DNA from: Rufibacter sp. DG15C
GTDB taxonomy: Bacteria; Bacteroidota; Bacteroidia; Cytophagales; Hymenobacteraceae
Length of the DNA: 64,000 bases
Direction of reading: 5' to 3'
NCBI RefSeq assembly: GCF_001577755.1
Contig: NZ_CP010776.1
Location: 1,116,001 to 1,180,000 of the forward strand
Positions 7,556 through 10,229 of this stretch are shown one piece after another (the stretch's first letter is position 1; every line of letters starts with the position of its first letter). Below the pieces are notes generated by a model. That model saw nothing but the letters and a program-made list of their open reading frames with translations, did no database searches and was not told the origin of the DNA. Both the position numbers and the translations under genes were made by a program.

Positions 7556-7629
7556 AAACCAGCCCATCGGCAACACCCGCGGCACGGGCTCGTTACTACG
7601 TATTGGCTTCGCCTAAAAAGAGCATCCCT

Positions 7630-8913
7630 ATGATTCAATTCAAAGAATTTACCTTAGATAACGGTCTTCAGTGCCTGGTGCATGAGGACCCTACCACGCC
7701 ACTGGCGGTTTTAAACGTGTTGTACAACGTAGGCTCCCGGGACGAAGTGGAAACCCACACTGGGTTTGCGCACTTGTTTGAGCACCTCATGTTCAGTGGC
7801 TCGGTGAACATTCCCAGCTACGACGAGCCCCTGCAACAGGCCGGCGGCGAGAACAACGCCTTCACCAGTCCAGACATTACCAATTACTATTTGACGGTAC
7901 CGGCCCAGAACATAGAGACCGGTTTCTGGCTGGAGTCTGACCGCATGCTGGACCTGGCCTTCAGTGAGAACGGCTTAGAGGTACAGCGCAAAGTGGTAGT
8001 AGAGGAATTCAAGCAGAACTACTTAAACCAACCGTACGGCGACATTTGGTTGAAGCTTCGTCCGTTGGCCTACCAGCACCACCCTTACAAATGGGCGACC
8101 ATCGGCAAGGAAATCAGTCACATTGAGAACGCCGTGATGGATGACGTGCGTGCCTTTTTCAAAAAGCACTACTCGCCGGCCAACGCCATTCTGGTGGTGG
8201 CCGGCAACATCACGTTTGAACGCGCGAAGGAGTTGACGGAAAAATGGTTCGGACCGATACCGGGAGGCGTGAAGTATGAGCGTAACCTGCCCCTAGAGCC
8301 GCGCCAGACCGAAGCCCGCCTGTTAGAAATGGAAGCCGATGTGCCCTTGACCGCGCTTTACAAAGCCTACCACATGCCCGGCCGCACCAGCCCGCATTAC
8401 CACGCCGCCGATTTACTAAGCGACATTTTGGGCAACGGCAACTCGTCCAGGCTCTATAATGAGCTGGTGAAAGAGCAGAAGCTGCTCAACTCCATCGGGG
8501 CGTTTGTAACGGGCTCTCTGGAACCCGGCCTGCTCATCATCCAAGGCAAATTGAACGTGGGCGTAGACCCATACCAGGCCAATGCCGCGGTAGAGGAAAT
8601 TGTAGCCCAGGTACGCGCCCACCACGTAGCTGAGGACGAGTTGCAGAAAGTCAAAAACAAGGCCGAGACCTCTATTGTCTTCTCTGAGATTGAGCTCCTG
8701 AACCGCGCCATGAACCTGGCCTACGGCAAACTGATGGGCAACCCCAACTACGTCAACGAGGAAGCCAGCCGTGTCCAGTCCGTCACCGCCGAAGACCTCT
8801 ACCAACAGGCCCAGGAAGTCCTCAGACCAGAGAACTGCTCTACCTTAATTTATAAAGCCGCTCCCAGCGCCGCCACCTTGTCTGAGCTGGAAGAAGCCAT
8901 GGCAGAGGAGTAA
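7630..8913 (+). CDS. M16 family zinc metallopeptidase
   Basis: 427 aa from the ATG at 7630 (a TTG at 7603 is possible, but MIQFKEFTLDNGL is the usual family start). The inverted zinc motif HLFEH is at 48-52, with a distal Glu at about 125 (KVVVEEF). This single-unit length, half of pitrilysin, is typical of M16B/processing-peptidase-like proteins. No signal peptide is evident. Many Bacteroidota carry two adjacent M16 genes, one active and one inactive; only one is here. A 38-bp palindrome follows the stop by 11 nt. Confidence 0.93.
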   Translation: MIQFKEFTLDNGLQCLVHEDPTTPLAVLNVLYNVGSRDEVETHTGFAHLFEHLMFSGSVNIPSYDEPLQQAGGENNAFTSPDITNYYLTVPAQNIETGFWLESDRMLDLAFSENGLEVQRKVVVEEFKQNYLNQPYGDIWLKLRPLAYQHHPYKWATIGKEISHIENAVMDDVRAFFKKHYSPANAILVVAGNITFERAKELTEKWFGPIPGGVKYERNLPLEPRQTEARLLEMEADVPLTALYKAYHMPGRTSPHYHAADLLSDILGNGNSSRLYNELVKEQKLLNSIGAFVTGSLEPGLLIIQGKLNVGVDPYQANAAVEEIVAQVRAHHVAEDELQKVKNKAETSIVFSEIELLNRAMNLAYGKLMGNPNYVNEEASRVQSVTAEDLYQQAQEVLRPENCSTLIYKAAPSAATLSELEEAMAEE

Positions 8914-8924
8914 TCTCATACTCT

Positions 8925-8962
8925 CGTTTTCGGGCTGTTTTGGTGAAAACAGCCCGAAAACG
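8925..8962. repeat. 38-bp palindromic repeat, copy 4 (compensated variant)
   Basis: Arms CGTTTTCGGGCTGTTTT and AAAACAGCCCGAAAACG are perfectly complementary, yet differ from consensus at two paired positions each. It starts 11 nt after the M16 gene stop. Confidence 0.9.
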
Positions 8963-8998
8963 GAAAATCTAAGCTTCGGCTCCTTTCTTTAACTCTCT

Positions 8999-9024
8999 TT
9001 TGTCATCCTGAAAGGAACTTGTGG
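8999..9024. repeat. 26-bp inverted repeat, left copy
   Basis: An exact reverse complement of 9596-9621. Core TCATCCTGAAAGGAACTTG. It lies upstream of the orphan gene at 9077. Confidence 0.9.
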
Positions 9025-9076
9025 GCCAGCTGTAGTAGCGTTTGCTCATAGCTGGGAGCTATACAAAGTATTCAAT

Positions 9077-9514
9077 ATGTCTCTTGAGGACTTCCAAGCA
9101 TTTGTAGATAAGACTTTAAGCGAGCTAATTCTTTATGCCGAAGTACATGCGGGTAAAAGTTTTAGCGACCATGAGCTAGCATTTGAATGGACATCTTATG
9201 ACCGAACCATTACTACTGGCAGAGAAAACATTGTTTATGCAATAGCAGACAGGGTTTTTGTTTCTGAAGAAGAGATTTACCCCTGTGTGGACTTAGTCAT
9301 TGAGAAACCAGAATCAAGGGAAAATATTTTGAGAATAACAGGAAGGAGAGCAGGGTACCCACCTTGTCCTTTTGGAATTGGCTGGAGCAAAAGACCGGGA
9401 CCGTTCATCTACGGAATAGGGAAAGGCATTAAAACTAAATTAGTGAACACCAAAGATCCGCAGTTTAAGAAGAAGCTCAGAGATTTGGGACTAATTCACC
9501 ATGACATAGACTAA
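9077..9514 (+). CDS. Orphan protein of unknown function between inverted repeats
   Basis: 145 aa, soluble, with no signal peptide or membrane segment. No family recognised. It is more AT-rich than both neighbouring genes. Features seen: an acidic N-terminal helix (LEDFQAFVDKTLSELI), central strands (YAIADRVFVSEEEIYPCVDLVI), and a Pro/Gly/Cys-rich stretch (RRAGYPPCPFGIGWSKRPG). The gene sits between two exact 26-bp inverted repeats (8999-9024 and 9596-9621) in an otherwise conserved gene neighbourhood, which suggests acquisition. Real coding is likely from codon structure but unproven. Confidence 0.6.
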   Translation: MSLEDFQAFVDKTLSELILYAEVHAGKSFSDHELAFEWTSYDRTITTGRENIVYAIADRVFVSEEEIYPCVDLVIEKPESRENILRITGRRAGYPPCPFGIGWSKRPGPFIYGIGKGIKTKLVNTKDPQFKKKLRDLGLIHHDID

Positions 9515-9595
9515 AGTAAACTAACCTCTTCTAGCCTTTCACTTTCAGCAGTACAGGCTTTGTGCTTCCTAGTCAAAACTGTCTGTCTAGTTTGA

Positions 9596-9621
9596 CCACA
9601 AGTTCCTTTCAGGATGACAAA
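9596..9621. repeat. 26-bp inverted repeat, right copy
   Basis: An exact reverse complement of 8999-9024. No transposase lies between the copies. Confidence 0.9.
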
Positions 9622-9682
9622 GCGGGGAGTCTTAGTTCAAATACACGGCTTTTACTTTAGCCCGGACAAACATCTTTGACGC

Positions 9683-9737: not shown

Positions 9738-10229
9738 ATGAGTTTTCACATAAGAACCGGCTTCGGCTATGACGTGCACCAATTACAGGAAGGACTGGAC
9801 TTTTGGCTGGGCGGCATCAAAATCCCGCACACGCACGGTGCCCTGGGCCACTCAGACGCAGACGTCCTCATTCACGTCATTTGTGATGCCCTGCTAGGAG
9901 CCGCCAACCTGCGTGACATTGGCTACCATTTCTCAGACAAAGACCCCAAATACAAAGGCATTGACAGCAAGATTCTGTTGCGCGAGGTGATGGTGTTGCT
10001 GAGAGAGAAGGGTTATGAAGTAGGCAACATTGACTCCACCGTCTGCTTGCAAGAGCCAAAGGTAAACCCGCACATCCCTGGTATGAAAACCTGCCTGGCC
10101 GAGGTGATGGGCATTCCGGAGGACGATATTTCCATTAAAGCCACCACCACGGAGCAATTAGGATTTGTGGGTAAGAAGGAAGGCGTAGCCGCCTATGCCA
10201 CGGTATTGATTCATAGAGTAGCCAATTAA
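9738..10229 (+). CDS. ispF: 2-C-methyl-D-erythritol 2,4-cyclodiphosphate synthase
   Basis: 163 aa, full length. Cyclises CDP-methylerythritol 2-phosphate in the non-mevalonate isoprenoid pathway. Metal ligands D12 and H14 (GYDVH) and H46 (DADVLIH) are present, as are HSDAD and the TTTEQLGFVGKKEG C-terminal signature. It stands alone, with no other MEP-pathway gene in the window. A palindrome follows the stop by 10 nt. Confidence 0.97.
   Translation: MSFHIRTGFGYDVHQLQEGLDFWLGGIKIPHTHGALGHSDADVLIHVICDALLGAANLRDIGYHFSDKDPKYKGIDSKILLREVMVLLREKGYEVGNIDSTVCLQEPKVNPHIPGMKTCLAEVMGIPEDDISIKATTTEQLGFVGKKEGVAAYATVLIHRVAN

Follow-up and report, generated by a model that had tools for sequence, protein, structure and literature searches.

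A TGTC-tagged REP pair carrying an orphan gene, with a small GIY-YIG nuclease as its likely partner enzyme

Minimal mobile elements of Neisseria occupy a fixed chromosomal address, and their content varies among relatives. The Ssn proteins, which are GIY-YIG single-strand nucleases, reportedly occur together with NTS repeats in Neisseria, and the NTS presumably corresponds to dRS3. In the passages of Di Nocera 2013 (PMC3733652) that deal with tagged REPs, dRS3 is filed as CGTC-1, TGTC is listed as a variant of CGTC, and no dedicated transposase is reported for REPs with either tag. The same passages describe the CGTC class by a stem of 8–9 bp starting with AT, a loop of 4–5 nt and a short tail that is mostly CCA; its members are mostly HH dimers with the tags outside, and DNA insertion between the partners may occur. 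RAYT–REPIN systems, to which PMC3116915 and PMC2817692 relate, combine a Y1 tyrosine transposase with many paired REPs and a long-lived gene framed by REPs.

The locus described here lies in a stretch of 64,000 nucleotides (the window, C1:1116001-1180000) of a genome assembled as a single contig of 4.14 Mb, 99.97% complete. The original prediction, made from the letters of the window, had drawn attention to exact 26-bp inverted repeats at 8999–9024 (+) and 9596–9621 (−) around an AT-rich 145-aa gene of unknown family. Both observations were confirmed: the chance expectation for a 26-nt inverted repeat in the window is 0.00 (100 shuffles), and the gene has 40.9% G+C against 49.6% for the window and no significant family match. 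At 91% identity, the inverted repeat reaches 33 nt (8999–9031 and 9589–9621, with 557 nt between). The segment 8999–9621 is one of many inward-facing REP pairs with TGTC tags that are spread over the genome, and on the preferred reading, which we consider probable, the enzyme of this family is a GIY-YIG nuclease of small size. The features of the locus are as follows.

8989..8998, no strand: left flank, pyrimidine-rich, a family-wide feature (mean 8.3 of 10)
8999..9621, no strand: whole REP pair with its putative passenger gene, 623 bp
8999..9024, + strand: left REP with its TGTC tag facing outward; GAA lies between the stem arms TCCT and AGGA
9025..9046, + strand: left inner arm, A type
9077..9514, + strand: orphan gene, 145 aa, putative loop passenger
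9574..9595, − strand: right inner arm, B type
9596..9621, − strand: right REP, identical to the left REP when reverse-complemented
9622..9631, no strand: right flank, purine-rich, a family-wide feature (mean 8.2 of 10)

The 145-aa ORF is flanked by ORFs at 7603–8913 and 9738–10229, for which we use the earlier reader's putative names, M16 peptidase and ispF. Directly after the peptidase ORF lies a 17-bp perfect palindrome with a 4-nt loop (8925–8962), probably the terminator of the peptidase gene; similar stems also stand 3' of this gene in congeners. The window pair has A–B type ends, its left and right sides differing past nt 26, and both REPs carry the rarer base A at position 19 (found in 8 of 58 REPs).

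A genome search for more copies of the 26-mer, as had been proposed, found about 60. The 15-mer GTCATCCTGAAAGGA is present in 60 exact copies genome-wide, 29 forward and 31 reverse (reversed control, 0), the 26-mer at 59 places with up to three mismatches, and a laxer scan of 214 kb gave 74 REP copies. Each copy is a short palindrome with a TGTC tag; the 4-bp stem TCCT-GAA-AGGA, with its 3-nt loop, is kept in 50 of 58 copies, and the sequence 3' of the stem is ACTTG, CCTTG or TCTTG in most. Two properties of the single unit count against the preferred reading: the 26-mer alone folds as ssDNA no better than shuffles (z 0.04), and the full 5-bp stem ATCCT-GAA-AGGAT occurs in only 12 of 58 copies, those in the window having 4 bp. 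A 94-nt pair folds as ssDNA into one long hairpin (−31.3 kcal/mol, z −10.8). The earlier description of the arms as two copies of a scattered repeat was true and incomplete, since REP neighbors within 1.5 kb are convergent with the tags outside in 31 cases, tandem in two and divergent in none; some copies within the stretches read are single. The 29 inward-facing pairs analyzed span 93–1309 bp, eight of them at 93–94, 11 at 141–161 and 10 at 228–1309 bp. One A-type and one B-type end, as judged from the sequence past 26 nt, are combined in 24 of the 29, and the base at position 19 is identical within the pair in 21 (13.0 expected, p 0.0007). A single pair of the 27 with enough flank read lies inside a longer open frame. 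No evidence supports an invertible segment, another of the earlier readings: the ends are unlike past nt 26, and A-to-B was the only order found, in the window unit and in three congeners whose ends were typed by eye (G014, G004 and G015).

A target-site duplication, the check proposed for a mobile unit, was sought at the exact ends, presumed to be the true unit ends: direct repeats of 2–9 nt were found in none of the 29 pairs. The longest shared word in the 40-nt flanks averages 4.90, compared with 4.86 with swapped partners; a test with shifted ends carries no information, its control also giving 0. A classical transposon is thus unlikely, and we give a low probability to a MITE or IS-derived unit whose DDE or other transposase was lost or is encoded elsewhere and whose cargo is the 145-aa gene, even though terminal inverted repeats, many short copies and sites without the unit in the congener G013 would suit it. 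ORFs were read in the six longest pairs, none of which shows a transposase-like gene on inspection; the transposase profile used in searching gene content was PF01797. This Y1_Tnp profile, the RAYT/IS200 domain, has no match in the genome at E 0.001, and a RAYT partner was accordingly rejected for the window genome. In the 10 nt outside the REPs, pyrimidines average 8.3 on the left side and purines average 8.2 on the right side, falling to 4.3 and 5.2 further out, with no element-specific complementarity between the flanks (4.10 vs 4.36 with swapped partners).

Elsewhere in the genome, the pairs contain GIY-YIG genes, other genes or none. PF01541 matches five places, three within frames of 477–603 codons and two in small stand-alone genes. 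Each of the two small genes, at 736 and 1056 kb, sits inside a 383-bp REP pair and encodes a protein of 98 aa, and they are 69% identical to one another. The small protein matches PF01541 at E 8e-14, and Y9, Y20, R30 and E69, which we take to be the catalytic residues, are invariant in 13 GIY-YIG sequences. Counted from the B end, both genes have their start codon at offset 48. The word [AT]TG[AG]AA recurs at this offset in 8 of the 11 pairs of 141–161 bp (seven from the B end, one from the other end), and in none of the eight pairs of 93–94 bp or the eight longer non-GIY pairs. From this shared start context, the 141–161-bp pairs are best read as internal-deletion derivatives of a GIY-YIG pair.

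The two GIY-YIG copies differ in their surroundings. For the copy at 1056 kb, the right-hand neighboring sequence matches GIY-YIG loci of nine congeners (G012, G002, G010, G001, G015, G011, G003, G009 and G008), the gene being broken in G009 and G008; it also matches G013, which lacks the gene. For the 736-kb copy, the flanks have no match among these congener loci, and the equivalent site in G013 has neither REP nor GIY-YIG gene. Within the genus, exact 19-mers number 26–70 per genome with an unbroken GIY-YIG match (n=9), 24, 47 and 48 with broken copies (n=3), and 10, 11, 29 and 52 with no match (n=4). The last of these values belongs to G013, so REP copies persist without the enzyme, a point against the preferred reading.

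Stand-alone GIY-YIG genes were found in 36 of 59 Bacteroidota genomes searched, the window genome included. Within 250-bp flanks, an inverted-repeat score of at least 13 was reached by 53 of 67 such genes versus 2 of 65 displaced controls, and a score of at least 18 by 48 genes versus one control; nine of the 67 lack repeats of 13 in either form, inverted or direct. The set of 67 excludes the second copy of the window genome (framed), the G051 contig 4 locus, L234 (a duplicate of L059), and L232 and L233, which repeat L087 and L085. Among GIY-YIG genes from the genus of the window genome, 15 of 15 are framed. The letters of the stem vary by genus while the stem is retained: in the flanks of 96 loci, 128 of 284 GTCAT words close a stem with their own triplet, compared with 4.5 on average and 11 at most over 1000 control rounds using the triplet of another word. 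Fifteen triplets occur, some perhaps by chance; in outer 600-bp stretches, 16 of 171 GTCAT words close a stem. A sample of the phylum gave a GIY-YIG match in 68 of 148 genomes, again counting the window genome. Among the 29 best-scoring loci, which were the ones read, inverted repeats of at least 13 were present in 17 (4 controls), direct repeats of at least 18 in 19, an uncontrolled count in which one stems from an adjoining gene copy, and either type in 23. Outside the order, frames are often direct repeats (19 of 29 loci), which counts against the preferred reading.

On plasmids, 30 records match GIY-YIG, and 14 loci, picked for variety, were read. Eleven score at least 13 (control maximum, 10.5). 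Of the Alphaproteobacterial loci, 10 of 11 are framed, two of them, from Sphingobium, being near-identical; the tag is CGTC in nine and CCTC in one. Perfect CGTC hairpins with an 8–9-bp stem starting with AT and a loop of 4–5 nt stand 5' of the gene in 6 of the 14 plasmid loci, and CGTC-ATCCCCGC-GAAG-GCGGGGAT-CCA frames the Azospirillum lipoferum GIY-YIG gene between sufB and sufC (L241, plasmid AZO_p3). The unframed loci are from Spirosoma (12.0), Rhizobium (L51/94, 7.5) and Photobacterium (8.5). As a separate observation, the GIY-YIG gene of Planktothrix agardhii plasmid p1 (L246) lies between an MmeI-type restriction gene and DISARM drmA, and its flanks contain strong direct repeats (score 53.5).

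Loops that also contain other genes and other repeats, together with the REP-rich G013 and its lack of a GIY-YIG match, would be expected if REP pairs played a passive part, accumulating DNA as hot spots and spreading through recombination or another enzyme, the GIY-YIG genes being mere passengers. We regard this as improbable, because many genera show the framing, each time with differing stems, Alphaproteobacteria add a further stem family, and the 141–161-bp pairs retain the GIY-YIG start letters. The embedded genes, their start context, the framing and the covarying stems instead make a GIY-YIG nuclease, as in Ssn, the most likely enzyme partner of the REPs. By analogy with Ssn, the enzyme would recognize the tagged repeat as ssDNA and nick it, and replication or recombination could then copy, exchange or lose the DNA between two REPs. 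A bolder version, to which we give rather less than even credence, is that REP pairs with an embedded GIY-YIG gene form a transposase-free mobile system, in which an ssDNA nuclease frees or copies the DNA between inward-facing REPs. Such a system would disseminate short derivatives that encode nothing and occasionally carry a single gene, the 145-aa one being an example; in Bacteroidota and Alphaproteobacteria, it would provide the CGTC REP superfamily with the enzyme that has been missing.

With Ssn, the window family shares a small GIY-YIG protein and a repeat around its gene, with the repeat as the presumed target; it differs in belonging to another phylum than that of Neisseria and in its pairs and passenger genes. 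The fixed address with differing content between relatives recalls the minimal mobile elements of Neisseria; here, however, the address is marked by a REP pair, and two different genes between the same two REPs were not seen. Many paired REPs and a long-lived gene framed by REPs are points in common with RAYT–REPIN systems, whereas the Y1 tyrosine transposase of those systems has no PF01797 match in the window genome. Measured against the CGTC/TGTC passages of PMC3733652, the family agrees in its tag, its outward-tag pairs, its intergenic location and the DNA between partners, and it departs in its stem of 4–5 bp, its 3-nt loop and the absence of a CCA tail. The repeat thus appears to work like the CGTC class without being a typical member, since tag, dimers and location fit and stem, loop and tail do not. 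Those passages report no dedicated transposase, whereas a GIY-YIG gene is framed here.

A literature search on a REP–GIY-YIG link, whose scope left out most subscription papers and all preprints, gave no report among the matches listed, including the excerpts of PMC12306157 and PMC6006769; a search for the letters of the repeat gave nothing relevant among its listed matches. Taken alone, the window locus is ordinary, one of about 30 pairs; it opens onto a wider system of tagged REPs and GIY-YIG genes, with a single-gene passenger. GIY-YIG is thereby a testable candidate for the REP partner: its gene lies between the repeats, with covarying palindromes, not only in the window genome but also on megaplasmids of Alphaproteobacteria and in many Bacteroidota. 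If the proposal is true, a widespread kind of bacterial repeat gains its enzyme, and gene-bearing REP pairs become candidates for a transposase-free route of moving genes. Should the Ssn work extend to these lineages, the new elements would be the pair that carries a gene, the derivatives with internal deletions and the connection with the CGTC class.

The history of the window site was read from 15 congeners, of which nine have the pair or one arm there and none the 145-aa gene. Both REPs were found by script in G014, G004, G011, G002 and G015; by eye, a pair with a diverged right arm is seen in G008 and G010, the loop of the latter holding another nested repeat, and the left REP only in G003 and G013. 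Six congeners have no REP at the site (G001, G005, G006, G007, G009 and G012). On the simplest reading of this distribution, the REP pair was in place before its passenger. The congener nearest at the site is G013, with 98% in the peptidase; there, a gene other than the 145-aa one adjoins the single left REP on its outside, not its inside, and gene swapping between the same two REPs was therefore dropped as an explanation. The peptidase–ispF gap of G010 (L104) also contains a second repeat family, inverted copies of TTGTTGGTGTTATCACCAACAA, in or beside the REP pair; the family is similar in the congener loci L097, L099, L100, L103, L106, L107 and L109.

The other sites of the window genome (n=28) were compared with G013, in which 23 were located: 12 with both REPs, five with one and six with none (474, 736, 878, 1056, 1838 and 2745 kb). 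Reading for exact insertion points gave no empty site with defined ends, which counts against the preferred reading. For spacer replacement at the 12 shared sites, the indications are mixed: eight have a similar spacer length and four are 1.7–2 times longer in G013, and the interiors have a mean identity of 0.53 compared with 0.39 for non-orthologous pairs, the near flanks having diverged too. Longer loops in G013 (L147, L152, L155 and L158) include a module resembling AGATTCTCCCCTTGAGG and GTGTTTACA, as do, with similar letters, the loops of the pairs at 1861707 and 2699868 in the window genome; the module has the appearance of a further repeat that is nested within the loops.

Among gene-bearing pairs, that at 474 kb holds a 128-aa lipoprotein-like gene and that at 878 kb two such genes. 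The 513-kb pair (876 bp) frames an isomerase gene that was rejected as cargo and is resident, because G013 carries it at the same place, with one REP. Flanking of a resident gene by REPs therefore does occur; nevertheless, we consider it very improbable that two independent single REPs came to flank the 145-aa gene by chance, with no joint movement, since the window ends share the rarer A at position 19, pairs agree at this position more often than expected, and congeners hold the pair here without the gene. Of the earlier interpretations, supported in part, the non-autonomous cargo unit comes nearest: the gene sits in the loop of a pair, other pairs have variable content, and the gene is missing here in every congener. 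There is, however, no sign of a target-site duplication, and any movement of the unit is putative. A widespread 26-mer had been named as the first half of an outcome that would overturn the earlier reading; the repeat is indeed widespread, and the other half, a repeat unrelated to gene pairs and a gene present in all relatives, did not hold.

The 145-aa protein gave best E values of 0.12 in Pfam, 0.033 in PHROGs and 0.95 against PDB sequences, and no NCBIfam or PADLOC match; two AlphaFold2 models have a mean pLDDT of 41.0 and 38.1. One homologue, 78% identical, was found among 38 relatives, in Sabulibacter ruber (G011; Hymenobacteraceae, same genus as the window genome), and a short-pattern scan of 84,980 species genomes, which detects close relatives only, returned the same single homologue. 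Comparison of the two genes (dN 0.13; dS 1.53, near saturation; dN/dS about 0.09) indicates that the gene is real. The homologue lies elsewhere, with no such REPs around it, which counts against the preferred reading. The best reading of the 145-aa gene is that of a passenger carried in the REP pair's loop; it may have reached the loop of a resident pair by insertion there, or alternatively through recombination between that pair and a gene-bearing one located elsewhere, and would have been retained for its own function. The integron integrase TIGR02249 does not reach its family cut-off in either of the two genomes scanned. In Sabulibacter ruber (NZ_JAFFID010000005.1; L057:350-3010), the homologue stands in a row of small genes split by long palindromes, an arrangement that has the look of integron cassettes.
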